From positions 310,001-374,000 of the forward strand of contig NZ_JACYOT010000005.1 in NCBI RefSeq assembly GCF_014858005.1: a stretch of DNA of 64,000 bases, read 5' to 3'. This document shows positions 7,337 to 31,181 of the stretch, in pieces. Position 1 is the stretch's first letter. Each line of letters opens with the position of its first letter. The notes beneath the pieces were generated by a model, which was not told the origin of the DNA, made no database searches, and was given only the letters and a program-made list of their open reading frames with translations. Origin of the DNA: Propioniciclava soli (GTDB lineage Bacteria > Actinomycetota > Actinomycetes > Propionibacteriales > Propionibacteriaceae). The position numbers and the translations under genes were made by a program.

Positions 7337-8350
7337 TCAGGCGTCCGGGGAGGGCCCCGTCGACTCGCGCACGACGAGCTGGACGGGGAAGAACTGGCGC
7401 TTCAACCCGCCGTTCTCCTCCGCGAGAGCCAGGCGCAGGGCGGCGCCGCCCATCTCCTCCAACGGGATGTGCACGGTCGTGAGCGACGGGGTGAGGTCAC
7501 GGGCCACCCAGATGTCGTTGCAGCCCGCCACCGACATGTCGGTGGGCACCGCGAGGCCGTGGTCGCGACAGTAGGCGAGGGCGCCGATGGCCATCTGATC
7601 CGCGGTGGCGACCACCGCGGTGAGGTCGGCGTCCAGGGCGAGCAGCTGGGACATGCCGGCGTACCCCCCGTCACGCGTCTGCGGCACCTGCACCACGGTC
7701 GGTGCCCGCCCCAGCCCGTCGGCGACCCCGCGCACGCGGTCCACCGTGGACGTCACCACCCCCGAGCCCGAGAGCACACCGACGCGGGTGTGCCCGAGGC
7801 GGCGCAGGTGGGCGCCCAGGGCGTGGCCGGCACCGTGGTTGTCCGCCTCGACGCGCACCGCGGGCACGCCCGCGTCCAGCTCGTGACGCCCGAGCAGCAC
7901 CACCCGACCGGTCTGGGAGAACGACGCCACCCGCGCCGCCAGGCCCACGCGGTACTCCTCGTCGTCGAGGCCGGACCCGGCCACGATGATGATGCTCGCT
8001 CCGTGGGACTGCAGCTGGCGAAAGCTGGCCAGCTCCCGCTCCGGGTCACGATCGGTGCTCACGACGGTGACCAGGCACGACTCCTCGGCCGCGACACGGC
8101 GGACGCCGTCGACCAGCGCGTCGAAGTAGTGGTCGCCGACCTGGCCCACCAGCACCCCGACGGTGCGCGCGTTGCCGGTGATCAGGGCGCGCGCCTGCGC
8201 GTTGGGCACGTAGTCGAGCCGTGCGGCGACCTCGACGACGCGCTCGCGCAGCTCGGCGCTCACGGGGTAGCTGCTGCCCGACAGCACGCGTGAGGCCGTC
8301 GCCAGCGAGACTCCCGCCTCGCGGGCGACCTGCTTGAGGTTGCCACCCAT
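7337..8350 (-). CDS. LacI family transcriptional regulator of the catabolic island
   Basis: 337 residues: an N-terminal helix-turn-helix (LKQVAREAGVSLATASRVL, residues about 5-23) with the LacI hinge, then a periplasmic-binding-like effector domain (GVLVGQVGDHYFDALVDG... to CNDIWVARDLTPSLTTV). It probably binds a sugar-type effector. It lies 10 bp downstream of the Gfo/Idh oxidoreductase on the same strand. The likely targets are the two ACGTTT-centred elements at 9224-9250 and 17296-17323. A TAGAGT sequence 7 nt before the ATG overlaps the preceding stop codon and may be coincidental. Confidence 0.9.
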   Translation of the reverse strand: MGGNLKQVAREAGVSLATASRVLSGSSYPVSAELRERVVEVAARLDYVPNAQARALITGNARTVGVLVGQVGDHYFDALVDGVRRVAAEESCLVTVVSTDRDPERELASFRQLQSHGASIIIVAGSGLDDEEYRVGLAARVASFSQTGRVVLLGRHELDAGVPAVRVEADNHGAGHALGAHLRRLGHTRVGVLSGSGVVTSTVDRVRGVADGLGRAPTVVQVPQTRDGGYAGMSQLLALDADLTAVVATADQMAIGALAYCRDHGLAVPTDMSVAGCNDIWVARDLTPSLTTVHIPLEEMGGAALRLALAEENGGLKRQFFPVQLVVRESTGPSPDA

Positions 8351-8360
8351 GGCCCGGACT

Positions 8361-9164
8361 CTAACGCCCCGGGCAGGCCTCGGCCCGCAGCGCGGCCTCC
8401 AGCAGCCGGACGCCGTCGAGCACCTCGGCGTGGGCCACGGGCGACGGTCCCCCGGCCAGGAAGCGCATGATCGCCGCCGCGGCGGGGTCGAAATAGTCCG
8501 GGCCCAGGGGCAGCTCCGCCTGCCGGGCCCCCGACGGTGTGGTGACGCGGGCGCGAAACGGCGCTTCTTGCCCGAGCAGTCGAATCTCGATGGGGCAGGA
8601 GGTACGGCAGCGCAGCACCACCCCCTCCCGCGTGGGGTGGGCGCTGAGATCGCGCACGGGGCCTGGGGCGAGCGCCAGGGCCAGCTCGATGGCGTGCGGG
8701 GCGTAGAAGGCGCGGCCACCGTGGGGGGACGCCGGGTCCGTCGGTCCGCTCACCCGGACGACGCGCACGTCATCTGGGCGGGCCGGCGACACGCCGGCCA
8801 CCCCCCGGTGCCACCGCAGGGCGGAGAAGCTCGTCACCCGCCCGCCCGCCGCCCGAGCTTGGGCGATCAGCGCGGCGGCGTCCCGGCTCGTCAGCGCGAA
8901 GGGCTTGTCGACGAACACGCTCAAACCGGCACGCAGGAGCGGTTCGGCGGCGCCGCGGTGGTGCGATCCGTCGCGGCCCAGGACGACGGCGGCGTCCACC
9001 AGCCCCACGAGATCGGGCGGCTCGGCGACAACGTCGAGGCCCTCCCAGCCCCGCGTGGGGGCGACCACGGCGGTGAGACGGGCCCCGGCATCCGGATGCC
9101 GGGCCAGCCACCCCGCCAGCGCGTCGGCGTGGCTGCTCTCGTCACCCACCAGGCCGATCCGCAC
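8361..9164 (-). CDS. Gfo/Idh/MocA family oxidoreductase
   Basis: 267 residues, about 60-100 shorter than usual for the family. The N-terminal Rossmann start VRIGLVGDESSHADALAGW has a variant dinucleotide motif (GLVGDE instead of GxGxxG). VDKPFALT matches the conserved EKPxA segment that carries the catalytic Lys, and SALRWHRGV follows. Members oxidise or reduce sugars, inositols or sugar acids with NAD(P). The GTG at 9164 has AGGGAGG about 6 nt upstream; the longer upstream frame lacks a credible start. It is the first gene of a two-gene unit with the LacI regulator and divergent from the importer operon. Confidence 0.82.
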   Translation of the reverse strand: MRIGLVGDESSHADALAGWLARHPDAGARLTAVVAPTRGWEGLDVVAEPPDLVGLVDAAVVLGRDGSHHRGAAEPLLRAGLSVFVDKPFALTSRDAAALIAQARAAGGRVTSFSALRWHRGVAGVSPARPDDVRVVRVSGPTDPASPHGGRAFYAPHAIELALALAPGPVRDLSAHPTREGVVLRCRTSCPIEIRLLGQEAPFRARVTTPSGARQAELPLGPDYFDPAAAAIMRFLAGGPSPVAHAEVLDGVRLLEAALRAEACPGR

Positions 9165-9223
9165 GCCGCACCTCCCTTCCGAAACGCGCCGAGACCGCTT
9201 CCCACCGGGCCTGGGCAGCGCTA

Positions 9224-9250
9224 TTGTCACCGCCATAGTAAACGTTTCCT
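9224..9250. promoter_or_regulatory. Putative LacI-type operator/promoter of the importer operon
   Basis: The segment has TTGTC at 9224-9228 and GCCATAGTAAACGTTTCC at 9232-9249, with the palindromic core AAACGTTT. It lies in the divergent region between the Gfo/LacI genes and the binding-protein gene. A closely similar sequence occurs at 17296-17323 and nowhere else that I noticed. AACGTT cores are typical of LacI-family operators. Confidence 0.6.
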
Positions 9251-9310
9251 GCCGCAGGAGGCGTCGGAGCCGGATTGTCACCCGGGCAGTCCCACGTCAG
9301 GAGGTTCCCC

Positions 9311-10570
9311 ATGAAGTCACGACTCGTGGCCAGTGCCACGCTCCTCACCCTCGCGTTCGCCGGCTGCTCGGGGAACGCCGCAACACCCGGCACCACGGCC
9401 GGCACGGACACCGCCGGCGGTGAGCCCAGCGGCGACGTCACGGTGTGGATGTACCCGGTCATCGCCGACGACGCGGCCTCCCAGACCTTCTGGGCGGACG
9501 CCGAGAGCGCCTTCGAGGCGGACCACCCGTCCATCGACCTCACGATCGAGCTGCAGCCGTGGGCCGGCCGCGACGAGCAGGTGGCGACGGCGATCGCGTC
9601 CAACACCGGGCCCGACCTGGTGCTCCTCACGCCCGACTCGCTGCCCGGCTTCGTCGACAACGGCGGCCTGAAGTCGCTGGCGGACGCCCAGGATCCCGCG
9701 TTCCTGGAATCCGCCGTCACGGCCGCCACGGTCGACGGCGAGATCTACGCGGTGCCGCTCTACCACACGGTGATCGCGCCGGTGTACAACCAGCCGCTCT
9801 TCGAGGCGGCGGGCATCACGGAGCTGCCCGAGACCTGGGACGACCTCACCGCGGCCGCGCCGGCCCTGGCCGCCAACGGCATCACCCTCATGGACTACTC
9901 CGGCGTCGCCACCCTGAACATGACGTACTACCCGTTCCTGTGGCAGGCCGGGGGCTCGGTGTTCGCCGACGACGGGGAATCCGTGGCCTTCAACTCCGAC
10001 GAGGGCCGCGCCGCGCTGCAACTGCTCGTCGACCTCAAGAACGCCAACGCCCTCCCGGCCGACGCCGCCACCAAGGAGAACACCGTCGAGGGGTCGGGCC
10101 TCACCAACGGCACGATCGCGATGACCCCGATGGCCGTCAAGGCGGACGCCGTGACCCTGCAGACCGCCCTCGGCGAGGACGCCGTCGCCGTCGGCGCACC
10201 CCTCACGGGTGAGGAGCAGGTCACGTTCGGCCTGCCCGGCCTGCTGGCGCGGACGTCCATCAGCGATGATGACGGCACCGCCGAGGTGGTGGCGCGCTAC
10301 CTCTCCTCCGCGGAGTTCCAGACCAGCCTGTCGGAGGCGTCCGGCTACTTCCCGGCCCGCACCGACGCCACGGCGGACAGCTCCGACCCGCTCAACGAGC
10401 CGTTCCAGGCGGCGCTGCAGTACGCCCGCCCCGGTGAGGTCAACCCGCACTCGCGCCAGGTGATGGCTGCGCTGTCCGCGCACATCCAGGCGGCGCTCCA
10501 GGGCACCAAGACGGTGGAGCAGGCGCTCGCCGACGCCGAGACCGAGTGCAACGCCATCCTGCAGAGCTGA
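9311..10570 (+). CDS. Carbohydrate ABC transporter substrate-binding lipoprotein (family 1)
   Basis: 419-residue extracellular binding protein of a CUT1-type importer. The lipoprotein signal ends in LAFAGC with Cys19, then a low-complexity Thr/Gly/Ala linker, then the type I fold (VTVWMYPVIADD, IASNTGPDLVLLTPDSLPGF, EIYAVPLYHTVIAPVYNQ, VARYLSSAEFQTSLSEASG). The ligand cannot be read from the sequence. AGGAGG lies upstream of the ATG at good spacing. A strong stem-loop follows the stop and separates it from the two permease genes. Confidence 0.93.
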   Translation: MKSRLVASATLLTLAFAGCSGNAATPGTTAGTDTAGGEPSGDVTVWMYPVIADDAASQTFWADAESAFEADHPSIDLTIELQPWAGRDEQVATAIASNTGPDLVLLTPDSLPGFVDNGGLKSLADAQDPAFLESAVTAATVDGEIYAVPLYHTVIAPVYNQPLFEAAGITELPETWDDLTAAAPALAANGITLMDYSGVATLNMTYYPFLWQAGGSVFADDGESVAFNSDEGRAALQLLVDLKNANALPADAATKENTVEGSGLTNGTIAMTPMAVKADAVTLQTALGEDAVAVGAPLTGEEQVTFGLPGLLARTSISDDDGTAEVVARYLSSAEFQTSLSEASGYFPARTDATADSSDPLNEPFQAALQYARPGEVNPHSRQVMAALSAHIQAALQGTKTVEQALADAETECNAILQS

Positions 10571-10582
10571 CCCGTCCCTGCA

Positions 10583-10618
10583 GAGGACCCGGCCCGTCGC
10601 CAGGCCGGCCGGGTCCTC
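10583..10618 (+). terminator. Perfect 12-bp stem-loop after the binding-protein gene
   Basis: GAGGACCCGGCC (10583-10594) pairs perfectly with GGCCGGGTCCTC (10607-10618) across a 12-nt loop. No U-tract follows. In ABC importer operons such a hairpin usually protects the abundant binding-protein mRNA or partly terminates before the permeases. Confidence 0.75.
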
Positions 10619-10667
10619 CCCCCGCCACGGATCCCCACCCGAGGATCCCCACCCAGGAGGGAGCACC

Positions 10668-11615
10668 ATGGCGTCCGTCATCGCGGCCGACGTGCCGGCT
10701 GACCCCCGTCGAACACGCACCGGCTCCGCCCCGCGCGTCCCCGGCCGTGCCGCGCGTCGCCGGGACATGACCGCCGGGCTGTTGTTCGTGCTGCCCATGC
10801 TGGTGCTGTTCGTCATGTTCCGCGCCTTCCCGGCGCTGGGGGCCATCGGGCTGAGCTTCACCAACTACAAGCTCTCCGGGGACTTCGACGTCGTGGGCCT
10901 CAAGAACTACGCCGACTTCTTCACCAGCGAGGTGGCCCGCAACGCCCTGGCCACGACCCTGCTCTACGCGGTGATCTACGTGCCGCTCGTGCTCGCCGTG
11001 GCGCTGGGCATCGCGCTGCTGCTCAACCACATCGTGTGGGGCTCCGGTCTGTTCCGCTCCATGATGTTCCTGCCGTACGTCACCTCCTTCGTCCTCGCCG
11101 GCATCATCTGGACGTGGCTGCTCTCCCTGGAGGGGCCGATCAACGCGGTCGTGGGCGCCCTCGGCCAGGCACCCATCCCGTTCCTGTCCGGAGCCCAGCC
11201 GCTGATCCTGACCTCCATCGCGTCGGCGTCGGTGTGGCACGGCTACGGCTACTCGATGCTGATCCTGCTCGCCGGCCTCAAGACGATTCCCGAGGAGCTC
11301 TACGAGTCGGCCCGCATCGACGGCGCCACCGCGTGGCGCCAGTTCCGCCACATCACCCTGCCCCTCCTGCGCCCCAGCCTGTTCTTCGTTCTCGTCATCG
11401 AGACCATCGCCGCGTTCCAGGTGTTCGACACCGCCTACGTCATGACCGGCGGCGGCCCGGCGCGGGCGTCCTACTCGCTCGTGTACTTCCTCTACGACTC
11501 GGCGTTCCGGTACTTCAACTTCGGTCAGGCCGCGGCCGTCGGCGTCGTGCTGTTCGCGATCGTGCTGGTTCTCTCGCTGGTGCAGCGCCTCGTGCTCGAC
11601 CGGGAGACGGCATGA
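10668..11615 (+). CDS. Carbohydrate ABC transporter permease, MalF type
   Basis: 315 residues. A polar Arg/Pro-rich N-terminus of about 30 residues precedes six predicted membrane helices. The EAA loop ELYESARIDGATAWRQFRHI, which contacts the ATPase, is intact. It forms a heterodimeric channel with the next gene. The ATG has AGGAGGG upstream, and the stop overlaps the next start as ATGA. No ATP-binding subunit is encoded in the operon; in Actinobacteria such importers commonly share a housekeeping MsiK-type ATPase. Confidence 0.93.
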   Translation: MASVIAADVPADPRRTRTGSAPRVPGRAARRRDMTAGLLFVLPMLVLFVMFRAFPALGAIGLSFTNYKLSGDFDVVGLKNYADFFTSEVARNALATTLLYAVIYVPLVLAVALGIALLLNHIVWGSGLFRSMMFLPYVTSFVLAGIIWTWLLSLEGPINAVVGALGQAPIPFLSGAQPLILTSIASASVWHGYGYSMLILLAGLKTIPEELYESARIDGATAWRQFRHITLPLLRPSLFFVLVIETIAAFQVFDTAYVMTGGGPARASYSLVYFLYDSAFRYFNFGQAAAVGVVLFAIVLVLSLVQRLVLDRETA

Positions 11616-12421
11616 CCAAGCGACGCCTCACCCCCGCGCACCTGCTCGCCGGCCTCCTGGCGCTCGGCACCGTCACACCGTTCCTCATGGTCGTCGTCCT
11701 CGCCCTGAGCCCGCCCTATGCACCGACGATCCCGCAGACGTGGCCGGCGTCCCTCACCCTGGACAACCTTCGCGCCACGCTGGCGTCCGGCAACTTCGTG
11801 CGCTGGACGTGGAACAGCCTGGTCTACTCCGTCGTGAGCGTCGTGATCGTGCTGCTCACCGCCGCCATGGCGGGGTACGCCTTCGCGAAGAAGCGGTTCC
11901 CGGGGCGGGAGATCCTGTTCTGGTCGTTCCTCGCCACGCTCATGGTGCCCTTCCAGGCCATGCTGATCCCGCTCTTCATCCTGATGGCCCGGCTCGAGGG
12001 CGTGAACACGTTCTGGGGTCTTATCGTGCCGACGCTGGCCAACAGCCAGGCGGTGTTCCTCATGCGCCAGTTCATCCGCGACCTGCCCGACGAGCTCTTC
12101 GACGCCGCCCGCGTCGACGGTGCCGGCGAGTGGCGCACCTTCTGGCAGATCGTGCTGCCGCTCACCAAGCCGATCCTGGCGACGCTGGGCATCTTCGTCT
12201 TCCTGTGGCACTGGAACGACTTCCTCTGGCCGCTCGTCATGGCGCAGTCCAACGCCATGCGGACGCTGACCGTCGGCCTCGCGACGTTGCAGAGCGAGCA
12301 GGTTGCCCGCTCGGAGGTGATGGCCGGGGCGCTGATCACGGTCATCCCCTGCCTCGTCATCTTCTTCCTGCTGCAGCGGCACCTCGTCAACTCGATCGCG
12401 TCCACCGGAATCAAGGGCTGA
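11612..12421 (+). CDS. Carbohydrate ABC transporter permease, MalG type
   Basis: 269 residues with six predicted membrane helices and the EAA loop ELFDAARVDGAGEWRTFWQI. FLWHWNDFLWPLV is a hallmark of the MalG-type subunit. The ATG overlaps the stop of the partner permease by 4 bp, so this start is preferred over the longer upstream frame. It ends just before the epimerase gene, whose ribosome-binding site (GAGGAGG) straddles this stop codon. Confidence 0.93.
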   Translation: MTKRRLTPAHLLAGLLALGTVTPFLMVVVLALSPPYAPTIPQTWPASLTLDNLRATLASGNFVRWTWNSLVYSVVSVVIVLLTAAMAGYAFAKKRFPGREILFWSFLATLMVPFQAMLIPLFILMARLEGVNTFWGLIVPTLANSQAVFLMRQFIRDLPDELFDAARVDGAGEWRTFWQIVLPLTKPILATLGIFVFLWHWNDFLWPLVMAQSNAMRTLTVGLATLQSEQVARSEVMAGALITVIPCLVIFFLLQRHLVNSIASTGIKG

Positions 12422-12432
12422 GGAGGCCACCC

Positions 12433-13461
12433 GTGACCGACATGCCCACCACCGAGGCGGCCCTCGAGGAGCAGCTCTCGGCGCCGTCGGACGCCGTGGC
12501 CGCGGCGTTGGCGTCCACCACCGGCGACATCGTGGTGCTCGGGGCGGGCGGCAAGGTGGGCCCCACCCTGTGCCGCATGCTCCGGCGGGCGCTGGACGCC
12601 GCGGGCTCGCCGCGGCGGGTGCTGGCGATCAGCCGGTGGTCCGACGCCGACGTGCGCGACCGGCTGATCCGCTGGGGCGTCGAGCCGGTGACCGCCGACC
12701 TCGCCGATCCCGATGCCTGGGCCGGGCTGCCCGACGCCGGGGCGGTCTTCTTCCTGGCCGGGAACAAGTTCGGCTCGACGGGCAACCAGCACCTCACGTG
12801 GTGGATGAACGCCGTGGTGCCCGGGTTGGCCGCGTCGCGCTACCGGGGCGTCCCGACGGTGGTCTACAGCTCCGGGAACGTCTACCCGTTCGTGCCACCG
12901 CACTCGGGGGGCTGTTCCGAGACCGATCCGGTCGGACCCGTCGGCACCTACGCCCAGAGCTGCCTGGCCCGGGAGCAGGCCTTCGCCCACGCCGCCGCGC
13001 AGTGGGGCACGCCGGTCGCGATCTACCGCCTCAACTATGCCGTCGAGCTGCGCTACGGCGTGCTCGCCGACATCGCGGGCAAGGTGGCCTCCGGTGCCGA
13101 GGTCGACGTGACCATGGGGGCGGTGAACGTCGTGTGGCAGCGCGACTCCACCGACTGGAGCATCCGGCTCCTGGAGCACGCCGCACCGGAACCCTTCGTC
13201 CTCAACGGGACCGGCCCGGAGAAGGCCTCCACCCGCCGCCTCGCCGAGCAGTTCGCCGCCCTGCTCGGGCGCGAGGCGCACATCGTCGGGGCGGAGGCGC
13301 CCGAGGCGCTGCTCTCGGACGCGTCGCGCTGCCACGCCTTGTTCGGCTACCCCACCGTGGGGCTGGCCCAGGCCCGGGCGTGGACGGCCGCGTGGATCGC
13401 CGCCGGGGGGCGCCAGCTCGGCAAGGCGACCAAGTTCCAGACCCGAGACGGGAGATTCTGA
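12433..13461 (+). CDS. NAD-dependent epimerase/dehydratase (extended SDR)
   Basis: 342 residues. The Rossmann motif reads VVLGAGGKVGPTLCRML (near residues 36-52), a GxGGxxG variant. AVFFLAGNKFGSTGNQHLTWWMNAVV and YSSGNVYPF follow. The active-site Tyr is expected in GTYAQSCLAREQ, but the family YxxxK is altered: Tyr-Ala-Gln-Ser-Cys has no Lys four residues on. The enzyme may oxidise or epimerise a sugar or sugar acid, or have changed chemistry. GTG start with AGGAGG 7 nt upstream. It sits inside the importer operon, so it probably acts on the imported compound. Confidence 0.8.
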   Translation: MTDMPTTEAALEEQLSAPSDAVAAALASTTGDIVVLGAGGKVGPTLCRMLRRALDAAGSPRRVLAISRWSDADVRDRLIRWGVEPVTADLADPDAWAGLPDAGAVFFLAGNKFGSTGNQHLTWWMNAVVPGLAASRYRGVPTVVYSSGNVYPFVPPHSGGCSETDPVGPVGTYAQSCLAREQAFAHAAAQWGTPVAIYRLNYAVELRYGVLADIAGKVASGAEVDVTMGAVNVVWQRDSTDWSIRLLEHAAPEPFVLNGTGPEKASTRRLAEQFAALLGREAHIVGAEAPEALLSDASRCHALFGYPTVGLAQARAWTAAWIAAGGRQLGKATKFQTRDGRF

Positions 13462-14519
13462 TGACCTCCGCCACCTCGAGCGGGCCCGGCGCGCTGGCGA
13501 CGGCGCGGCCACCCGCGCTCGGCGGTGCGATCCCCGCCATGCCGCTGCTGCTCGGAGCCGACGGGCGCATCGACTGGCGCGCCCAGCGCGCGGTGGTCCG
13601 CTACCACCTGGCCGCCGGTGTCGCCGGGCTGGCGGTCGGAGTCCACACCACGCAGTTCGAGCTGCACGACGACCGCGCGCTGCTGTGCGACGTCTGGGAG
13701 CTCGTCCACGACGAGCTGGCGGCCTCCGGTCTGGATGCGACGCTGGTCGCCGGGGTGAGCGGGGACACCGACCAGGCGGTGGCCGAGGCCGAGGCGGCGG
13801 CGTCCCTGGGCTACCGGGCCGTGCTGCTGAGCAGCCGTGGCGCCCCCGACGCGGGCGAGGACGCGATCCTGGACCGGGCCGCGGCCGTCGGTGCCGCGCT
13901 GCCGACCATCGGGTTCTACCTGCAGGAGTCGGTGGGCGGACGCTACCTTTCACCGCGGTTCTGGCAGCGGCTGGTCGAGCAGCCGACGTGCATCGGGGTC
14001 AAGGCCGCGCCGTTCGACCGCTACCGGACGCGGGACGTCGCGTCGGCGATCCTCACGTCCGACCGGTGGCGCGACGTGGCGCTCCTGACCGGCAACGACG
14101 ACGCCATCGTCGCCGACCTCGTCACCCCGCACCGCCGCGTCGTGGGCGGTGTCGAGCGCGAGCTGCGCTGCGCCGGCGGTCTCCTCGGGCAGTTCGCCGT
14201 CGGCACCCGGGCGGCCGCGCAGCTGACGCAACGTTGCCTGGCGGCCAGCGACGCGTCGCCCGATCTGCTCGCCCTGGGCCAGGACCTCACTGAGGTCAAC
14301 GCCGCGGTCTTCGACGTGGTCCACCAGTTCGCCGGCTGCGTGGCCGGCGTCAACGAGGTGCTGCGCCAGCAGGGCCTGGCCCCCTCGGCGCGCTGTCTGG
14401 CGCCGACCGAGCGGGTCTCACCGGGGCAGGCCGACCTCATCGCGGCGGCCCGCCGCCGGTTCCCCGACCTGCTCGATGAGGACTTCATCGCCGAGCACCG
14501 GGACGCCTGGCTGTCCTGA
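13461..14519 (+). CDS. Dihydrodipicolinate synthase (DapA) family aldolase/lyase
   Basis: 352-residue (alpha/beta)8 class I lyase. The Schiff-base Lys is kept in CIGVKAAPFDRY and the catalytic Tyr in TIGFYLQES. The usual GTTGE loop is replaced by VGVHTTQFEL, so it is not a lysine-pathway DapA; related catabolic members cleave or dehydrate 2-keto-3-deoxy sugar acids. Its start overlaps the preceding stop (TGATG). As the last gene of the importer operon it probably performs the carbon-carbon cleavage or dehydration step. Confidence 0.85.
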   Translation: MTSATSSGPGALATARPPALGGAIPAMPLLLGADGRIDWRAQRAVVRYHLAAGVAGLAVGVHTTQFELHDDRALLCDVWELVHDELAASGLDATLVAGVSGDTDQAVAEAEAAASLGYRAVLLSSRGAPDAGEDAILDRAAAVGAALPTIGFYLQESVGGRYLSPRFWQRLVEQPTCIGVKAAPFDRYRTRDVASAILTSDRWRDVALLTGNDDAIVADLVTPHRRVVGGVERELRCAGGLLGQFAVGTRAAAQLTQRCLAASDASPDLLALGQDLTEVNAAVFDVVHQFAGCVAGVNEVLRQQGLAPSARCLAPTERVSPGQADLIAAARRRFPDLLDEDFIAEHRDAWLS

Positions 14520-14545
14520 CCGCAGGCGCCGGTTGGGGGGCGGGG

Positions 14546-15271
14546 TCAGAGCCCGAGGAGGTCGGCGGCGTTGCCGGCCATCACCGCGGCGCGCTCACTG
14601 TCGGAGAGCCTCGCAGCGTGGACCGCCCCGAAGGTGACCGACGGATCGATCAGCGTGGCGTCGGTGCCGAACACCAGCCGGTCGGCGCCGATGGCGTCCA
14701 AGACCCAGCGGATGCGGTGCGCCTCGGGCTGGGACCAGCACGGCTCGAACCAGATCCGGTCGGAGCGGCGCCGCGCGTCGGGCACCAGCCGCCACGCGTT
14801 GGCCCCCATGTGGCCGGCGATGAGGCGCGCCCCGTCGATGGCCGCCGCCTGGTCGGCGAGGTCGACCACGTCCCCACCCCACGTGTGCACGAGGACCGGC
14901 AGGCCGGCGTCCGTGGCGAGCCGCAGCGCGTCCCGCATCGCGCCCGACGCGATGGGGGTGGCCGTGTAGTGCGTGTGGATCTTGACCCCCACCCAGCGCG
15001 GCCGGGTGAGCCGACCCAGATCCCGTTCGGCGGCCGCCAGGTCGCGGGGGTCGATGGTGACGTAGCCCCGCAGGCGGGGGTCGTCGGCGTTCGCGAACTC
15101 CCGCTCCAGCGCCGCGTTGCCGCTGACGGGGTCGTAGGTGATCGCCTCGATGGCGCTCACCACCTGCACGTCGATGCCGAATCGGTCGAGCAGCGCGCGG
15201 TTGAGCGCCAGCGAGCCGGTCTCCATCGAGAAGAACCAAGGGCCCCAGTGGGCGTGGGCGTCGACGATCAT
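14546..15271 (-). CDS. Amidohydrolase family protein (TIM-barrel, metal-dependent)
   Basis: 241 residues of the amidohydrolase-2 type. The metal ligands are complete: HAH near residues 6-8, His in VLVHTWGG, His in IAGHMGAN and Asp in FGTDATLID. Family members hydrolyse lactones or decarboxylate; a sugar-lactonase role would suit the gene set. The ATG overlaps the upstream amidohydrolase gene in ATGA. It is the third gene of a minus-strand operon (aminotransferase, amidohydrolase, amidohydrolase) converging on the importer operon. Confidence 0.85.
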   Translation of the reverse strand: MIVDAHAHWGPWFFSMETGSLALNRALLDRFGIDVQVVSAIEAITYDPVSGNAALEREFANADDPRLRGYVTIDPRDLAAAERDLGRLTRPRWVGVKIHTHYTATPIASGAMRDALRLATDAGLPVLVHTWGGDVVDLADQAAAIDGARLIAGHMGANAWRLVPDARRRSDRIWFEPCWSQPEAHRIRWVLDAIGADRLVFGTDATLIDPSVTFGAVHAARLSDSERAAVMAGNAADLLGL

Positions 15272-16005
15272 GCGCGCCCCACCAGACGGGCGAGATTCCC
15301 GGACGCCGCGGCGCGCCGCGCCTCGTCGTCCAAGGTGGACGTCAACAGCCGCTCGACCGCGGAGCGCCCCTCGTGGAAGCCGGCGCGGGAACCGAACACC
15401 AACCGGTCCGATCCGAGCTCGTCGACCACGATCTCGAGGGAGTCCGGCCCGTTCAGCAGCCGCGTCGACACGTGGAACCCCGGCTCGTCGGCGGCCAGCG
15501 CCACGAGGTCGCCCAGATGGTAGAAGTGGGCGTCGAGGAACACCACGCGCAACCCCCGGCCGGCGTAGGCGGGCCCCCACACCCGGACGTCACCCTCGGC
15601 GAACACGACGAGATCACGCTCCGCGCAGGCCCGGACGATCGCGGCGAACCCCGGATGGGTGGGCAGACAGTCCTGCCGCTGCGGCGCCAACCGAACCACC
15701 GTGCCGTCCGGGGCCGCCGCCAGCGCCGCCCTCGCCCCCAGCCAGTCGCGCGTCTCCAGGGTGAGGGAGGGCACCAGGCCGAGCGTGCGTGCGGCCTCGA
15801 CCGCCTCCGCGTTGCCGGACGCGGCGTCGAACGTCATCGCCCGCAGGGAGCCCAGCACGCCGCCGACGATCGGGACGCCGGCCCCCGCCGCCAGCCAGGC
15901 GGCCAGATCCGGCACCGCGGTGCGCACGGCGGTCACCGGGTCGCGCCCCACCAGCAGGTCGGCGTCCCACACCTGCAGGGCCGCAGCGTTTGTGCCGGCG
16001 CTCAC
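15268..16005 (-). CDS. Amidohydrolase-like protein lacking metal ligands
   Basis: 245 residues, similar in length and layout to the next gene. The N-terminal HAH is replaced by WDAD, and the C-terminal FGTDA by FGSRA, so at least three metal ligands are gone. Other barrel segments (LVVFAEGDVRVWG, VVFLDAHFYHLGDLV) remain. It could be a regulatory or structural partner of its paralogue, or use different chemistry. The GTG start overlaps the aminotransferase stop in GTGA, and its own stop overlaps the next start. Confidence 0.78.
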   Translation of the reverse strand: MSAGTNAAALQVWDADLLVGRDPVTAVRTAVPDLAAWLAAGAGVPIVGGVLGSLRAMTFDAASGNAEAVEAARTLGLVPSLTLETRDWLGARAALAAAPDGTVVRLAPQRQDCLPTHPGFAAIVRACAERDLVVFAEGDVRVWGPAYAGRGLRVVFLDAHFYHLGDLVALAADEPGFHVSTRLLNGPDSLEIVVDELGSDRLVFGSRAGFHEGRSAVERLLTSTLDDEARRAAASGNLARLVGRA

Positions 16006-17174
16006 GCCGCACCCCTGTTGCAGGCCTCGGTGATGGCCGCCGCGATGGCGTCGGTGTCGGCGTCGGTGAGGTGCTCGTGAATCCACACCACCACCACCCG
16101 GTCCAACGCCGCTCGGGCGTGAGGCACCGCCACGTCGGCATACGAGAAGCCCTCGCCGGCCAGGGGGAAGGGGTGGCCCGAGGAACCGAACGTGCGCTGC
16201 TCGTGGGTCGCGGCCAGGCACTCGAAGATCGGCGCGCCGATGTAGCCACCCGTGACGGGCACCCCCGCCTCGCGCAGCGCCGCGGCCACGGCGTCGCGGC
16301 GTTCTGGGGCCACGTAGAACGGGTAGCACCAGTACGACGCCGGCCCGCCGGGAGGTGGCTGCCAGACCGTCGCGCCGGGCGCCTGCGCGACGGCCTCGTC
16401 CAGCCGGGCCGCGATCGCTCGGCGCCGCGCGACGACGGCCGGCAGCGTCGCGAGCTGGGGCAGGGCGACGGCGGACTGCAGCTCGGTGATGCGGTAGTTG
16501 AGCCCGAGGTGGGGGTAGGCGCGGGCGTGCGGGGAGGACCGGTCCCAGCCCTTGTCGCGGAACAGCCGCATGCGCGCGGCGAGCTCGTCGTCATCGGTGA
16601 TCACCACGCCGCCGTCGCCGCTGGTCATGTGCTTGGTCTGCTGCATGCTGAACGCGCCGAGGTGCCCGAAGGTGCCGACGAAACGGTCACCCAGGCGCGT
16701 GGCGTGCGCCTGGGAACAGTCCTCGATGAGGAACAGGCCCCGCTCGTCGGCGAGCCGGCGGAGCGCCGCCGCGTCCGACACGCCCCCGAACAGATGAACG
16801 AGCATGATGGCGCCGGTGCGTTCGGTCAACGCCGCCTCGACGCCCTCGACCGTCATGGCGAGGTGCTCGTCCACGTCACAGAACGTCGGGATGAGACCCT
16901 CGTACAGCAGGGGCACCACCGAACCGGCGTCGGTGATCGGCGCCACGACCACCTCGGTGCCGGGTTCGAGACGCAGGGACGCGACGGCGGTGTGGAGCGC
17001 CGCGGTGCCGGAGGAGGCCGCCACCGCGTGGGCCGCGCCGTAGAAGGACGCGAACCCCTCCTCCAACCGCGCGGTGAACGGCCCGTTCACGCTGGACAGG
17101 CTGCCGGACGCCAGCGCGGCGGCGCAGTTCTCGAGCGCCTCGGCGCCGAACGGTTGTCGCTGGGTGAGTTCCAC
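16002..17174 (-). CDS. DegT/DnrJ/EryC1/StrS family aminotransferase
   Basis: 390-residue PLP enzyme of the sugar aminotransferase family. The PLP-binding Lys is in SMQQTKHMTSGDGG, preceded by LFLIEDCSQAHAT (cofactor ring contact) and ASSGTAALHTAV (phosphate loop). These enzymes usually add an amino group to keto-sugars or keto-cyclitols in biosynthesis; in a cluster with an importer and lyases it more likely deaminates an amino-sugar or aminocyclitol. First gene of the minus-strand operon and divergent from the secreted propeller protein. Confidence 0.9.
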   Translation of the reverse strand: MELTQRQPFGAEALENCAAALASGSLSSVNGPFTARLEEGFASFYGAAHAVAASSGTAALHTAVASLRLEPGTEVVVAPITDAGSVVPLLYEGLIPTFCDVDEHLAMTVEGVEAALTERTGAIMLVHLFGGVSDAAALRRLADERGLFLIEDCSQAHATRLGDRFVGTFGHLGAFSMQQTKHMTSGDGGVVITDDDELAARMRLFRDKGWDRSSPHARAYPHLGLNYRITELQSAVALPQLATLPAVVARRRAIAARLDEAVAQAPGATVWQPPPGGPASYWCYPFYVAPERRDAVAAALREAGVPVTGGYIGAPIFECLAATHEQRTFGSSGHPFPLAGEGFSYADVAVPHARAALDRVVVVWIHEHLTDADTDAIAAAITEACNRGAA

Positions 17175-17295
17175 CGGTCGCTCCTGCCCCCTGCGTCTTG
17201 AGACGAGGCCGCCCGGCCCCGGTGCTCCACGCTAGCGCCCGGGCCGCACAGGGAGCAAAGCTTTTCTGCGCCTCGGAACAGGCCCGCGCGACCCC

Positions 17296-17323
17296 TTGTC
17301 GGACGCCGTAGAATACGTTTACC
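17296..17323. promoter_or_regulatory. Second copy of the island promoter/operator element
   Basis: TTGTC at 17296-17300 followed by GCCGTAGAATACGTTTACC at 17305-17323. Aligned with 9232-9250, 14 of 19 positions match, and TTGTC sits 3-4 nt upstream in both. It lies between the aminotransferase operon and the secreted propeller gene, so it could control either or both. Confidence 0.6.
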
Positions 17324-17370
17324 GTGGTGTCCAGACCAAGTCACCGGTGACCACATCCCCTGGAGGAACC

Positions 17371-19695
17371 ATGGCCCTGCGTTCTGCTCGACGGCCCCTG
17401 TTCGGCGTCCTCGCCGCCGCCCTCGCGGCGTCCGTCTGTCTCGTGGCACCCGCCCACGCCGCGGAGAATCCCCTGCCCGCCAGCTACACCGCTCCCCCGG
17501 CGCCCGGGGGTGCCCTCACCGACCTCGGCTCGCCGATCAGCTCCCTCACGGTCGTGGAGGGCGACTTCGGGCACCTCCCGGACGGCACCTTCGTCGCCTA
17601 CGCGGCCCCCATGGGTGAGGACGCCGCGCTCAACGTGTCCACCGCGACCTCGGGCACGAACACCCTGCTGGGCCAGTACCCCATGGTGGGCGCATCCGGC
17701 GCCCCCATGGTGCAGGTGGCCCCGGACGGCCGCGTGTACGCCGCCACCTACACCGACGGCCACCTCTACCGATGGGATCCGGCGACCGCCGAGATGACCG
17801 ACCTGGGTCAGGCCCCGGGCGGGGCGACCTACCTCTACGGCCTCTCGTTCGCCCCCGACGGCACGGTCTACGGCGGCTCCTACCCCCAGGCGACCGTGTG
17901 GTCGTACGCCGACGGCGTCGGTTTCACCGACCTGCAGGTGCCCATTCCGGACGCCTCCGTCCAGTACACACGCACGGTCTATGACCCCGACCGCCACGCC
18001 CTGTGGATCGGCACGCAGGCCACCGCCCACCTCTACCGGTTCGACCTCACCACCGGTGCGCTGGCCGAGGTCACCCTGGCCGCCGCCCCCAAGGCCGTCA
18101 GCTCCGTCTCTGACCTCGACTACGCCGAGGGAAGGGTGTTCGTGAACTGGGGCGGGTACGTCCGGGTCGTCGACGCCGAGTCATTCACCGAGGTCGCCTT
18201 CACCGACGTGTCCGCCAGCCTCCCCTTCACCGCTTACCCGCTCAGCGCCCGCGGCGTCTCCGAGGCCAAGCAGGGTGGCGTCTACTTCTCCAGCACCCAG
18301 GTGGTGAACGGCCGCAACAGCGTCGAGGTGGTCCGCTATGACCTCGCCACCGACACCGTCGCGCGCACCGGGGCCAACACCACCGTGCGCGGGGCCCTGA
18401 TCGGGTACGGCTGGACGGTGGAGAACGGCCAGGACGTCCTCTACGCCCTCGCCGGCAACTACTCCGGCGGCGGCTTCATGCTCAACATCGACAGCGGTCG
18501 TTGGCAGCGGCTGCAGTACGACATCCCCCGCGTGCCGTCCCCGCTGCAGCACGTCCTCCCCAACGCCGACGGCAGCCAAGTGCTGGTCAACGCGTTCCTC
18601 AATGGGGACACGAGCCGCTGGGACGTGGCGCGCGGAACCGCCACGCCGTTCACCCGCTTCGGGCAGGTGGAGGACTGGACGCTGGTCGACGGCGTCATCC
18701 ACGCCGGGGTCTACCCCAACGGCACGCTGGTCAGCGCACCCTTCTCGTCCTCCTCCTCGCCCACCCTGACGACCCACGCGACGCTGAAGGACTCCCACCA
18801 GCAGATTCGCCCCATCGAGGCGAAGGAACACGAGGGCCGGATCTGGTACGGCACCAACCCCGACTACGGGCTGCACGGCGGGGCCATCGCCGTCCTCGAC
18901 CCCACCACCGGGGCCGTCGACGTCACCGTCGACGTGGTGCCCGACCACACGATCGCCGCGCTCGCGTTCGTCGGCTCGCGGGTGTTCGCCGGGTCGTCCA
19001 CCGTGGGCGGCACCGGAACGCAACCCGTGCCCGGCTCCGGCACCCTCATCGCGTGGGACGCCGCAACGAAGTCCGTCGTCGCGTCGGTCACCCCGGTGGA
19101 GGGCGCCCGCAGCGTCAACGCGCTCGTGGAGCACCACGGACTGCTCTACGGCCTGGCCGACCACACGCTGTTCGAGGCCGACCCGGACACGCTCGCGGTG
19201 ACCCGGACGCTGCACCTCGGCACCTCCGGGCCCGTCCAGCCCGGTGAGGGCGAGCTCGTCTTCCACCCCAACGGCTACCTGTACGCCAGCGTCGACGACG
19301 CCGTCGTCGTGGTCGATCCGTTGGTCTTCGTCGCCACCACCCTGCTCAGCGAGGGGACGCAGCGGTGGGAGCTCTCCCCCGACGGCTCGTTGTGGACGAC
19401 CGTGCGCCCCGAGGGTGCCCGGAGCTTCACGCACCTGGGTCAGTACGGGCCGGCCGCCACCGACTGCGCCGCGCCGGACACGCGGCCGTACGTGACGCTG
19501 CTCGGCCGCACGACCACCGTGCGCAACCGGTTCCTCACCACCGGCTGCACGCTGCAGGATCTCATCCCCACCCAGGGCGTCCCCCCACGCCGATACGAGG
19601 CGGTGCTCCAACCGTGGTTGAGCGCTCGGGTCGCGGCCGGGCAGCTGAGCCCGATCGAGCGACGGCTGCTGTGGGACGCGGCCCGTGGGCGCTAG
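17371..19695 (+). CDS. Large secreted beta-propeller protein of unknown function
   Basis: 774 residues with a Sec signal peptide (cleavage predicted after AHA, residue 30) and no membrane anchor. The mature protein is a string of WD/NHL-like blades (for example VYAATYTDGHLYRWDPATAEMT, YGLSFAPDGTVYGGSYPQ, RIWYGTNPDYGLHGGAIAVL, LVFHPNGYLYASVDDAVVVV), enough for two propellers. A short helical C-terminus (YEAVLQPWLSARVAAG...) follows. I see no catalytic signature. TGGAGG precedes the ATG. Sharing an operator with the importer suggests it binds or processes the same polysaccharide or glycoconjugate outside the cell. Confidence 0.85.
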   Translation: MALRSARRPLFGVLAAALAASVCLVAPAHAAENPLPASYTAPPAPGGALTDLGSPISSLTVVEGDFGHLPDGTFVAYAAPMGEDAALNVSTATSGTNTLLGQYPMVGASGAPMVQVAPDGRVYAATYTDGHLYRWDPATAEMTDLGQAPGGATYLYGLSFAPDGTVYGGSYPQATVWSYADGVGFTDLQVPIPDASVQYTRTVYDPDRHALWIGTQATAHLYRFDLTTGALAEVTLAAAPKAVSSVSDLDYAEGRVFVNWGGYVRVVDAESFTEVAFTDVSASLPFTAYPLSARGVSEAKQGGVYFSSTQVVNGRNSVEVVRYDLATDTVARTGANTTVRGALIGYGWTVENGQDVLYALAGNYSGGGFMLNIDSGRWQRLQYDIPRVPSPLQHVLPNADGSQVLVNAFLNGDTSRWDVARGTATPFTRFGQVEDWTLVDGVIHAGVYPNGTLVSAPFSSSSSPTLTTHATLKDSHQQIRPIEAKEHEGRIWYGTNPDYGLHGGAIAVLDPTTGAVDVTVDVVPDHTIAALAFVGSRVFAGSSTVGGTGTQPVPGSGTLIAWDAATKSVVASVTPVEGARSVNALVEHHGLLYGLADHTLFEADPDTLAVTRTLHLGTSGPVQPGEGELVFHPNGYLYASVDDAVVVVDPLVFVATTLLSEGTQRWELSPDGSLWTTVRPEGARSFTHLGQYGPAATDCAAPDTRPYVTLLGRTTTVRNRFLTTGCTLQDLIPTQGVPPRRYEAVLQPWLSARVAAGQLSPIERRLLWDAARGR

Positions 19696-20505: not shown

Positions 20506-22005
20506 TCAGAACCCCATGGCCAGGCGGTGGTAGGCGTTGTTCCACCGCAGTTCCTTGGCGAACTGTTCGGTCTCGGTCCGGCCCGTGATGGAGACGAGCT
20601 CCACGTCCAGCATCGTCGCCAGGTTCGCGAGGTGCTCGCGCCGCAACGAGGTCGACAACACCGTGTGGTGTGGCCCACCCGCGAGCAGCCAGCACTCCGT
20701 CGAGGTGCTGAAGTCGGCGTCCGCCCGCCACACCGCACGCGCGACCGGCAGGTTCGGCAGGTCCTCCAGCGGCTCGACCAGCTCGACGTCGTTGCTCACC
20801 ATGCGGAACCGGTCGCCCAGGTCGCACAGGCCGAGCACCACGGCCGGCCCGGTCGCGGCGGTGAACACCATGCGCACCGGGTCCTCCCGGTCGCCGATGC
20901 CCAGCGGGTGCACCTCGATGCGCGGCTTCTCGCCGGTGATGGAGGGATCCACCTCGAGCATGTGCGCCCCCAGCGAGAGCTCGCGTCCGGGTTCGAGGTG
21001 GTAGGTGTAGTCCTCCATGAACGAGCTGCCGCCCGGCAGGCCGACCTCCATCGTCTTCAGGACGCGGCCCAGCACCGCGGTCTTCCAGTCGCCCTCGCCG
21101 GCGAACCCGATGCCGTCGGCCATGAGCCGCTGCACCGCCAGGCCGGGGAGCTGCTTCAGCCCGCCGAGGTCCTCGAACGTCGTCGTGAACGCCCCGAAGC
21201 CGCCGTCGACGACGAAGCGCCGCAGCGCCACCTCCTGGCGGGCGCCGTAGCGCAGCGACTCCGCTCGGTCCCCACCGGGGCGCAGCTCGGGGGCCACGTC
21301 GTACAGGTCGAGGTACTCCTCGACGACCGCGTCCACGTCGGCGTCCGCCACCGCGTCCACGACCGCCACGAGGTCGTTGACGCCCCACGTGTTCACGCTG
21401 ACGCCGAACGTCAGCTCGGCGGCGACCTTGTCGCCCTCGGTGACGGCCACCGAGCGCATGTTGTCGCCGAAGCGGCAGACGCGGAGCTGCGCCAGCTCGG
21501 CCGCACCCAGGCAGGCGCGGGCCCAGGTGGCCACGCGCTCCACCACCAACGGGTTCGAGACGTGCCCGGCCACCGTCGTCCGGTTCTTGCCCAGCCGCGT
21601 CTGGATGTAGCCGAACTCGCGGTCGCCGTGGGCGGCCTGGTTCAGGTTCATGAAGTCCATGTCGATGGTGGCCCACGGCAGGTCGCGATTGGCCTGCGTG
21701 TGCAGGTGCAGCAGCGGCTTGGCCAACAGGTCGAGCCCCGTGATCCACATCTTCGCCGGGCTGAACGTGTGCATCCAGGCGATGACGCCCACGCAGGCGT
21801 CGTCGGAGTTCGCGTCGATCATCACGCGCCGGATGCCGGCCGTGTCGGTCAGCACCGGCTTGGCGACCACCTCGACCGGCATCTGCTCGGCGGACGCCAG
21901 CGCGTCCGACACCGTCCTACTCTGGTCGGCCACCTGCGTCAGGACGTCCTCGCCGTACAACCCCTGGCTGCCGGTCAGGAACCACACCTGCTTGCGCTCA
22001 CTCAT
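20506..22005 (-). CDS. araA: L-arabinose isomerase
   Basis: Converts L-arabinose to L-ribulose with Mn2+. At 499 residues it has the family length, with the typical N-terminus [48 protein letters not shown] and the metal-site region [11 protein letters not shown]...[12 protein letters not shown]. The active-site Glu residues fall in GEGDW and MEDY. Last gene of araB-araD-araA; the ATG is preceded by GGGAGAAC on the minus strand. Confidence 0.97.
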
Positions 22006-22033
22006 CTTGTTCTCCCTTGGTTGGTGGGCCGCG

Positions 22034-22714
22034 TCACTGCCCGTAGACGTTCTGGTACCGGTCCCACAACCGGTCGATGTCGGCCTGGTCGATCCGCTGC
22101 GGCTCCCCGAGCAGCCGCGCGGTGTGGACGGTCCGCGCCACCTCCTCGAGCATCACCGCCGCCTTCACCGCGTCCAGCCCCGAGGAGCCGATGGTGAAGG
22201 GGCCGTGGTTGGCCATGAGGACGGCCCGCGAGCGCGAGTCGCGCAGCGTCTCGACGATGCCGCGGCCGATCGAGTCGTCGCCGATCAGCGCGAACGGGCC
22301 GACGGGGATGTCGCCGCCGAACTCGTCGGCCATCATCGTCAGCACGCACGGGATCGGCTCGCGCCGGGCCGACCAGGCGGTCGCGTAGGTCGAGTGGGTG
22401 TGCACCACGCCCTGCACCTGCGGCATCGCCCGGTACACGTAGGCGTGGGCCGCAGTGTCGGAGGACGGCTTGCGCTCCCCCTCCACGCGGTTGCCGTCGA
22501 GGTCGCACACCACCATGTCGTCGCTCGTCAGGGTGTGGTACCGGGCCCCCGACGCCTTGATGACGAACAGGTCGACCCCCGGCACGCGCTCGGACACGTT
22601 GCCGGCGGTCCACGTCACGAGGTCGTTGGCGGGCAGCTCGGCGTGCAGGTCGGTCACCACCTGCTTCACGCGGTCAATCTCGGCGCGAAACTCGGCCAGG
22701 CGCGGGTCGGTCAT
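22034..22714 (-). CDS. araD: L-ribulose-5-phosphate 4-epimerase
   Basis: 226-residue class II aldolase/epimerase family enzyme giving D-xylulose 5-phosphate. The zinc-binding pair is in [13 protein letters not shown], and a further His lies in [24 protein letters not shown] is the substrate phosphate loop. It lies 41 bp downstream of araB and 28 bp upstream of araA on the same strand, so the three genes are almost certainly one operon. Confidence 0.96.
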
Positions 22715-22755
22715 CGGGGTCCTCTCAGGTGGTGGCAGACGGGAAACGAACGTGC

Positions 22756-24381: not shown

Positions 24382-24429
24382 CTCTGCTCCCTCCGCCCGA
24401 TTGGATCCCACCCATCTCCGTCGCCGGGA

Positions 24430-24443
24430 TGTTAGCGTTCACA
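24430..24443. promoter_or_regulatory. Putative arabinose operator
   Basis: TGTTAGCGTTCACA is a pseudo-palindrome: 10 of 14 positions equal its reverse complement, centred on CG as in LacI-family operators. It lies in the 112-bp region between araB and the regulator. A TAGACT box for the regulator gene follows at 24455-24460. Confidence 0.55.
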
Positions 24444-24493
24444 CGGGCTGGCTCTAGACTAGCAGCCAAAACTGACCCGAGGGGGTGGCGGCG

Positions 24494-28827: not shown

Positions 28828-28838
28828 CGGGCGGCAGT

Positions 28839-29819: not shown

Positions 29820-29828
29820 GCCGCAACG

Positions 29829-31151: not shown

Positions 31152-31181
31152 GGGCCCCATCCTGCCCGGTCCGAGGAAGCG

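Follow-up and report, generated by a model that had tools for sequence, protein, structure and literature searches.

The gene cluster at positions 7337-19695 of the window (the whole stretch of 64,000 nucleotides of Propioniciclava soli that was analyzed) is a real gene set and not a chance neighborhood. An accidental neighborhood was rejected, since the same gene families recur together in 80 named loci, all of them from Actinobacteria as judged by genus name. Within the cluster the genes for an SDR-fold "epimerase" (Epi) and a DapA-like lyase form a core unit, which was also found beside NagA-like, NagB-like or GH20 genes. Tentatively, we read the cluster as an amino-sugar utilization locus, in which a DegT-family aminotransferase and the amidohydrolase pair AH1/AH2 stand where sister loci hold Nag-like enzymes, and for which we infer the chemistry outlined below.

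Organization of the Gene Cluster

All genes named in the initial annotation were present on the strands given there, with a total of eleven instead of ten. On the minus strand, a LacI-family regulator (7337-8350; Pfam LacI over the gathering score, and Peripla_BP_3) lies next to a short Gfo/Idh/MocA oxidoreductase of 267 amino acids (8361-9164), whose GFO_IDH_MocA match (PF01408, 33.7 bits versus a cutoff of 24) covers the N-terminal part only, residues 39-111. A 72% ortholog of the regulator adjoins the same genes in genome G009 (locus L021). On the plus strand, a solute-binding protein (SBP; 9311-10570; SBP_bac_1, 106.5 bits) and two permeases (10668-11615 and 11612-12421; both BPD_transp_1), all over their gathering scores, make up a sugar ABC importer of the CUT1 type; no ATPase gene was seen among the importer genes of the operon. 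Epi (12433-13461) and the DapA-like class I lyase (13461-14519) follow on the same strand with a 1-base overlap. The minus-strand trio of the DegT-family PLP aminotransferase (16002-17174), AH2 (15268-16005) and AH1 (14546-15271) is tightly coupled, because DegT shares 4 bases with AH2, and AH2 another 4 bases with AH1. Candidate LacI operators were found by pattern match between Gfo and SBP (GTAAACGTTTCC, 9238-9249) and between DegT and the propeller gene (GAATACGTTTAC, 17311-17322), with a pattern derived from these two sites themselves, which makes the count post hoc; loci L021 and L103 yielded 0 matches each.

The last gene encodes a probably secreted tandem double beta-propeller (17371-19695, plus strand). 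The double propeller of the initial annotation agreed with the AF2 prediction (mean pLDDT 81.5, pTM 0.81), which is consistent with two tandem propellers, while "secreted" refers to a signal-like start read by eye. Y448, Q478, and R480 were invariant in 34 aligned sequences. Pfam matches were of propeller type plus DUF6923 only, and Foldseek and VIA-align returned many unrelated kinds of propellers, giving no function.

Conservation of the Gene Set in Actinobacteria

A scan seeded with AH2 kept 80 of 91 relatives with flanks of up to 10 kb, which were complete for 60 of the 80 loci. AH1 was present in 78 of these loci, DegT in 61, the permeases in 58-60, propeller relatives in 53, DapA in 32, and Epi in 22. 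Loci with strong AH2 orthologs contained both DegT and AH1 in all 14 cases fetched; four weaker AH2-like places outside these 14 (L083-L086) held related, less complete sets. Loci without most of the set were kept in all counts, namely two loci with AH2 only (L109, L166), four Streptomyces loci with AH2-AH1 without DegT, importer or propeller (L124, L132, L134, L165), and three loci with AH2, AH1, and a DapA2 match (L154, L120, L176; L120 and L176 with one incomplete flank). Gene lists of the loci came from a simple ORF caller, which mislabeled some antisense ORFs, and the tallies rest on homology instead; the window itself is part of neither the AH2-seeded tally nor the tally of Epi loci described below. 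No AH1 relatives were found in viral contigs from the 16 pattern stretches scanned. The initial proposal of a catabolic carbohydrate island was supported, and the co-conservation of the aminotransferase and the amidohydrolases with the importer, on which that proposal had been made to depend, was found in the AH2-seeded scan. The gene set has a wide distribution among soil Actinobacteria and among antibiotic producers of this group. No described pathway with this gene combination was found in the literature searched, as far as the available parts of these sources go, and the initial annotation knew of none.

An Intact and a Metal-Less Amidohydrolase

The assignment of two amidohydrolases held for AH1 only in full. 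AH1 (PF04909, Amidohydro_2, 79.2 versus 26.4 bits) carries the complete metal site with the HxH, H, H, and D ligands; H6, H8, K97, H129, H154, and D204 were kept in 17 of 17 sequences. AH2, in contrast, is a homologue under the gathering score (14.4 versus 26.4 bits) which has lost the metal ligands and shows D/L or F/R/(G,E,D)/D/R at their positions in 34 sequences. It retains the TIM-barrel fold of the Amidohydro_2 family and many invariant charged residues, and COG3618 amidohydrolases were among its structural matches. A frame error was rejected, as the reading frame is open and conserved in the 34 sequences. AH2 was located directly before AH1 in 78 of the 80 loci, with a gap of 0-27 nt. 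The pairing of an active with an apparently dead copy is repeated in a paralogous module b, AH2b-AH1b-DegT' (AH2b next to AH1b in 46 of 47 cases, AH1b next to DegT' in 45 of 47), and a second DegT module was detected in 46 of the 80 named loci. The two modules offer a recurring natural example of an enzyme that is coupled with an apparently dead relative.

Charged residues of AH2 may contribute in trans to the active site of AH1. A possible precedent, by analogy, is 4ifk, the title of which names arginines, one of them from the neighboring subunit, as essential in a zinc-dependent decarboxylase. The named solved sequence relatives of AH1 are decarboxylases (gamma-resorcylate, ACMSD, 5-carboxyvanillate), the rest being otherwise uncharacterized amidohydrolases; its 14 solved-relative matches included neither a deacylase nor a lactonase.

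Aminotransferase, Epi, and DapA

DegT (PF01041, 271.7 versus 19.8 bits) has the PLP-binding Lys181, invariant in 17 sequences, and is the sole match to the DegT profile in its own genome. The nearest named families were PseC, LegC, and ArnB (149-193 bits versus cutoffs of 420-631), all of them C4 amino-sugar aminotransferases. Epi reached the score of the extended SDR family (PF01370, Epimerase, 34.9 versus 20.9 bits), which agrees with its designation as epimerase, but it lacks the YxxxK catalytic pair: Tyr173 is kept and the SDR lysine is replaced by Cys177, both in at least 90% of 18 and in 15 of 15 aligned sequences. For DapA (PF00701, DHDPS, 25.7 versus 22.1 bits), alignment to DHDPS revealed the Schiff-base Lys181 and Tyr153, invariant in 14 sequences. 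GxxGE is the carboxylate-binding motif of DHDPS/NAL lyases and expected of 2-keto acid enzymes; here it is altered, the aligned stretch being HTTQF. Among the many hits of the DapA profile, a dihydrodipicolinate synthase was the best (8e-10), followed by an N-acetylneuraminate lyase (E 2.3e-8).

Epi-DapA Loci With DegT or With Nag-Like Genes

From 77 Epi loci L075 was dropped for want of Epi, leaving 76 (13 DapA-seeded and 63 from Epi searches); the Epi places G282:C1 and G506:C3 were left out of the tally. DegT only was found in 28 loci, NagA-like, NagB-like or GH20 genes only in 14, both in 0, and neither in 34. A Fisher test of this exclusion, which takes no account of relatedness and uneven sampling, gave p = 0.0013, and the exclusion was weaker for AH1/AH2 versus Nag/GH20 (p = 0.03); 10 of the 28 DegT-bearing loci showed no AH in the stretch fetched, some stretches perhaps being incomplete. 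NagB-like genes, NagA-like genes, or both stood in line with Epi-DapA in L187, L188, L190, L191, L192, L194, and L228, and GH20 genes (Pfam) occurred in its loci L193, L195, L215-L218, and L233, while genomes G173, G202, and G222 possess one locus of each kind (DegT; Nag/GH20). The best NCBIfam matches were nagB/glucosamine-6-phosphate deaminase for four NagB-like proteins and nagA for four NagA-like proteins. Their own substrates are unsure, because all tested proteins scored under the NCBIfam cutoffs (NagB-like 90-126 versus 237-326 bits; NagA-like 148-216 versus 226). In G009, a genome of the same genus, locus L021 kept LacI, Gfo, importer, Epi, and DapA, with module b in place of module a. 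Queries with nagA-like and nagB-like proteins gave no match in the window; the genome has true nagA and nagB elsewhere, both over the cutoff. Of the amino-sugar or aminocyclitol substrate suggested initially, the amino-sugar part gains a link through the sister loci, but nothing specific to aminocyclitols was observed.

Proposed Function and Alternative Explanations

In the tentatively favored amino-sugar utilization, the secreted double propeller would bind or trim an amino-sugar glycan outside the cell. The LacI-controlled sugar ABC importer would take up the product, which Gfo/Idh would oxidize. AH1 in complex with the metal-less AH2 may deacylate by hydrolyzing an amide, hydrolyze a lactone, or act as a decarboxylase, DegT would transfer the amine to a 2-oxo acid, and Epi and DapA would dehydrate the carbon skeleton or split it. 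DegT and AH1/AH2 would hence hold the place of the NagB-like and NagA-like enzymes of the sister loci. In favor of this reading stand the co-conservation of the genes, the mutual exclusion of DegT and Nag/GH20 genes, and a genome that has nagA and nagB elsewhere and no second DegT match. Two points in particular weigh against it and against its more far-reaching version given below: the Nag-like proteins stayed under their cutoffs, and the named solved relatives of AH1 are decarboxylases. Further counterevidence comes from the 34 Epi loci with neither gene set, the 10 DegT-bearing Epi loci that showed no AH, the four Streptomyces loci with AH2-AH1 but no DegT, importer or propeller, and the heparinase II/III-alginate lyase fusion in G054.

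A non-phosphorylating oxidative sugar-acid or uronate route, the scheme of the initial annotation, appears somewhat unlikely. There, Gfo/Idh or an LLM enzyme would form a lactone, AH1 would open it, an enolase-type enzyme or Epi would dehydrate, and a DapA-type enzyme would cleave the product, with DegT serving a nitrogen-bearing variant. Such a route would leave DegT in 61 and the second DegT module in 46 of the 80 loci unexplained, and it fits poorly with the altered GxxGE motif and with solved sequence relatives of AH1 that include no lactonase. It would, however, account for the MLE-type enolase found with DapA2 in 13 of the 80 loci (Streptomyces, Actinomadura, Kribbella, Actinacidiphila), in most cases alongside an LLM oxidoreductase, for a gluconolactonase-like gene before Epi-DapA in L184, a glucuronyl-esterase-like hydrolase in L187, and the COG3618 matches of AH2. 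Moreover, a heparinase II/III-alginate lyase fusion neighbors Epi-DapA in L030 (G054), pointing to uronates.

Breakdown of nonulosonic acids of the legionaminic/pseudaminic type, with DapA as lyase, AH1 as deacylase, and DegT taking the 4-amino group off the diamino sugar that is released, is improbable. The N-acetylneuraminate lyase as second-best hit of the DapA profile, the PseC and LegC matches of DegT, and the Epi-DapA neighbors in L187 (GlcNAc 2-epimerase-like, NagB-like, and NagA-like genes) would suit it, but dihydrodipicolinate synthase remains the better DapA match, GxxGE is altered, and Pfam gave no sialidase match for the propeller. It is very improbable that two DegT modules remove the two amino groups of an aminocyclitol or aminoglycoside: the solved relatives of DegT and DegT' include inosose aminotransferases, and many loci come from antibiotic-producing genera, but perosamine synthase-type enzymes score higher, the window and L021 have a single DegT each, and nothing cyclitol-specific was seen in the loci read. 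Amino-sugar biosynthesis is equally hard to credit, since beyond the roles of the named DegT relatives, which we take to be biosynthetic (PseC, LegC, ArnB, and perosamine synthase type), the operon is accompanied by an importer and LacI, and no nucleotidyltransferase or glycosyltransferase was noticed by eye in the starts of rough ORF calls from 43 fetched stretches. Surface-sugar synthesis by DegT in this genome was rejected indirectly, from the absence of a second DegT match and the importer in the locus.

Returning to amino-sugar utilization, a more far-reaching version of it is rather unlikely as a whole. It would be a novel breakdown in which a deaminating DegT and a two-part amidohydrolase, its active site completed by the metal-less partner, take over from the Nag-type enzymes of a modular pathway built on Epi-DapA. 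Cassettes a and b would be swapped for different amino sugars, and secreted double propellers with the invariant Tyr/Gln/Arg would act on the extracellular glycan and might be new carbohydrate-active enzymes. To our knowledge, DegT enzymes are at home in biosynthesis only; a catabolic role for them would follow, if this were true. The locus makes a nutrient still to be named accessible to simple growth and binding tests.

Comparison With Known Systems

The oxidative galacturonate route of Agrobacterium comprises SDR, amidohydrolase, enolase-type, and DapA-type steps and is not known to include an aminotransferase. Enzymes of the same superfamilies occur here, but together with an aminotransferase, and the SDR lysine and the GxxGE motif differ. 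GlcNAc catabolism via nagA-nagB resembles the window in the importer-fed locus for a probable amino sugar, and sister Epi-DapA loci hold nagA-like/nagB-like genes. The window, however, is without both, DegT is not the same type of enzyme as NagB, and AH1/AH2 belong to Amidohydro_2, whereas NagA-like proteins belong to Amidohydro_1. With the Amidohydro_2 decarboxylases and hydrolases (ACMSD, COG3618, PDC hydrolase) AH1 shares the sequence family and all ligand residues and AH2 the fold; here, however, AH1 has a neighbor without metal ligands. Finally, PseC, LegC, ArnB, and perosamine synthase are of the same Pfam family as the window DegT, which keeps the catalytic lysine but scores far under the cutoffs of PseC, LegC, and ArnB and resides in an uptake locus instead of a biosynthetic one.

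Organization of the island and candidate operators

Eleven island genes were found at positions 7337-19695, and their content, adjacency and kept residues were established directly. The genes for the LacI regulator and a short Gfo/Idh oxidoreductase run leftward, those for a solute-binding protein, two importer permeases, an epimerase-like protein of the SDR fold (Epi) and a putative lyase of the DapA type (DapA) rightward, with an overlap of 1 base between Epi and DapA. Convergent to the latter, the minus strand carries the DegT aminotransferase and the two Amidohydro_2-type proteins AH2 and AH1 (DegT/AH2 and AH2/AH1 overlaps of 4 bases each). The double-propeller gene is oriented divergently to DegT, and its product begins with a signal-like stretch. 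Candidate LacI operators were located between the Gfo and binding-protein genes (9238-9249) and between the DegT and propeller genes (17311-17322). Their common pattern matched three times in the 64 kb, both strands counted, versus 0.43 matches expected, and at least three times in 2 of 100 shuffles; as it was built from these two sites themselves, the statistics are suggestive only. The 64 kb held no third site beyond the two candidates, and the pattern was absent from L021, the locus of a same-genus genome, and from the Brachybacterium locus L103.

Next after the island, an L-arabinose-type set of araA-, araD- and araB-like genes with a second LacI (20506-25501) was named by reading translations. 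Close to two sugar loci lie genes (27303-31160) whose sequence starts resemble those of larB/larC, which belong to nickel-pincer cofactor synthesis. The protein of about 716 aa encoded at 1914-4064 presumably resembles GH36-type alpha-galactosidases.

Conservation of the gene set

Among 57 related genomes, DapA orthologs with at least 48% identity were present in 13, a figure that includes the genome of the window. A search of the class (345 genomes) with an AH2 alignment yielded 20 genomes at E <= 1e-8, 16 of them at E <= 1e-60, again including the window's own. Neighbourhoods were fetched for 14 of the 15 other genomes at the stricter threshold: DegT and AH1 occurred in all 14, importer permeases in 13, Epi with DapA in 12 and propellers in 12. 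The best 80 of 91 AH2 relatives from named genomes, judged by the genus names in record titles, were all from Actinobacteria (Jiangella, Nonomuraea, Micromonospora, Streptomyces, Kribbella, Brachybacterium and others). Within flanks of up to 10 kb, the co-conservation of aminotransferase and amidohydrolases with the importer anticipated in the initial annotation was borne out, with AH1 at 78, DegT at 61, permease G at 60 and permease F at 58 of the 80 loci. Also counted were DapA2, a further DapA-type profile (65), the regulator (57), propeller (53), binding protein (48), the paralogs AH1b (47), AH2b (47) and DegT' (46), DapA (32), Epi (22), an MLE-type enolase (13) and an LLM oxidoreductase (13). 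The 60 loci with full flanks gave AH1 58, permease G 50, DapA2 49, DegT 46, propeller 45, DapA 27 and Epi 17. By these counts, DegT, amidohydrolases, importer and propeller belong together as one co-occurring set, and Epi-DapA is a member of only part of the AH2 loci; it was not found in the 13 enolase-type loci (Streptomyces, Actinomadura, Kribbella, Actinacidiphila). Importer type is not fixed, since in L103 the DegT-AH2-AH1 trio is flanked by peptide-type ABC importer genes, as read from the gene list.

Cassettes and Nag-like loci

Many AH2 loci contain a second paralogous trio, AH2b-AH1b-DegT' (cassette b). The same-genus genome keeps LacI, Gfo, importer, Epi and DapA at 44-76% identity and carries cassette b where the window has DegT and AH1/AH2 (cassette a), so the two cassettes look interchangeable. 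Downstream of DapA in that genome, a 43-residue AH1-like match (L021:11731-11860, 58%) is perhaps a remnant of cassette a, replaced by cassette b.

Epi loci were gathered without requiring DegT and combined with 13 DapA-seeded loci, giving 76 with Epi. DapA was found in 73, a DegT-family match in 28, propeller in 22, AH1 in 18, GH20 in 7, and NagB-like and NagA-like genes in 6 each. NagA-like, NagB-like or GH20 genes were present in 14 loci, and none of these 14 contained DegT or AH1/AH2. For DegT versus Nag-like/GH20 the counts were 0 both, 28 DegT only, 14 Nag-like/GH20 only and 34 neither (p = 0.0013), for the amidohydrolases 0, 18, 14 and 44 (p = 0.03); both p values overstate the exclusion, because the loci are related and were sampled by family. 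Three loci (L191, L192, L194) showed the single-strand order Epi-DapA-NagB-NagA, and in four (L193, L195, L215, L218) GH20 lies directly 5' of Epi. Best NCBIfam matches were nagB or glucosamine-6-phosphate deaminase for NagB-like proteins (90-126 bits) and nagA for NagA-like proteins (148-216 bits), all below the curated cut-offs; the names GH20 and GlcNAc 2-epimerase were assigned by Pfam. Three genomes (G173, G202, G222) each hold one DegT-type and one Nag-like/GH20-type Epi locus, and 10 of the 28 DegT-bearing Epi loci had no amidohydrolase within the stretch fetched.

Judged from its genes, the island is not the GlcNAc pathway of its own genome, because nagA and nagB, both over cut-off and adjoining, are found there on another contig. 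The window DegT was the sole match of the DegT profile in this genome at E <= 0.001, with no sign of a second DegT for amino-sugar synthesis. About 6 kb from nagB-nagA, a DapA2-profile match marks what is perhaps a sialic-acid locus (G000:C1:171322-179785).

The amidohydrolase pair

All 17 AH1 sequences retain the metal-ligand positions H6, H8, K97, H129, H154 and D204, as do all 20 AH1b sequences. In the same order, the 34 AH2 sequences have D, L (replaced by F in one sequence), R, G/E/D, D and R, and in the 20 AH2b sequences H, either L or V, R, D, either N or S, and G predominate. AH1 and AH1b would be the active members of the two pairs, AH2 and AH2b the apparently dead ones. AH2 is confidently assigned an Amidohydro_2 barrel, with D14, D16, R55, R86, R105, D158, H160, E174, R182, E191 and R207 as invariant charged residues in 34 sequences. 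AH2 lies directly 5' of AH1 in 78 of 80 loci (gap 0-27 nt), AH2b directly 5' of AH1b in 46 of 47 and AH1b directly 5' of DegT' in 45 of 47; DegT is directly 5' of AH2 in only 23 of 80. A putative two-part enzyme of AH2 and AH1 is the simplest reading; a possible precedent is entry 4ifk, by its title a zinc-dependent decarboxylase that needs arginines, one supplied by the neighbouring subunit. The named solved relatives of AH1 by sequence are decarboxylases.

The pair may also function by itself. Four Streptomyces loci (L124, L132, L134, L165) hold an AH2-AH1 pair with 62-71% identity to that of L034, and no DegT, importer or propeller was found nearby; the surrounding genes read in L124 and L132 gave no hint of its role. 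In Sinosporangium (L154:4831-11241) the pair lies near a large gene, from its start presumably resembling alpha-L-rhamnosidase.

Proposed pathway and comparison with known systems

We favor an amino-sugar utilisation locus in which DegT and AH1/AH2 would stand in place of Nag-like enzymes. From the protein families, the importer would take up a glycan fragment, Gfo/Idh would oxidise the imported compound, AH1 would hydrolyse or decarboxylate, DegT would move the amine onto a 2-oxo acid, and DapA would cleave the carbon skeleton, along with a step on Epi. DapA retains the Schiff-base lysine and the tyrosine, with HTTQF at the glycine-rich motif of DHDPS; Epi, whose best solved relative is TerB, retains the SDR tyrosine, the YxxxK lysine being replaced by cysteine. 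Y448, Q478 and R480 of the propeller are invariant in 34 sequences, which would fit a putative binding or catalytic site.

A sugar-acid route is a less probable rival of the amino-sugar route, supported by a heparinase/alginate-lyase fusion, a glucuronyl-esterase-like hydrolase and a gluconolactonase-like gene, which point to uronates. Relatives of the glucuronyl-esterase-like hydrolase, that of locus L187, occur in the Brachybacterium AH2 loci L103 and L112, the L103 protein scoring under Pfam cut-offs.

For the amino-sugar route, the substrate is guessed to be a 4-amino sugar, since the named relatives of DegT are the C4 amino-sugar enzymes PseC, LegC and ArnB, and its solved-chain relatives perosamine synthase and 8-amino-octulosonate transaminase. 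No description of the gene combination, the paired amidohydrolases or the Nag-like position of DegT was found in the literature searched, most subscription journals lying outside its coverage, which is not proof of novelty; all parts of the island are members of known superfamilies.
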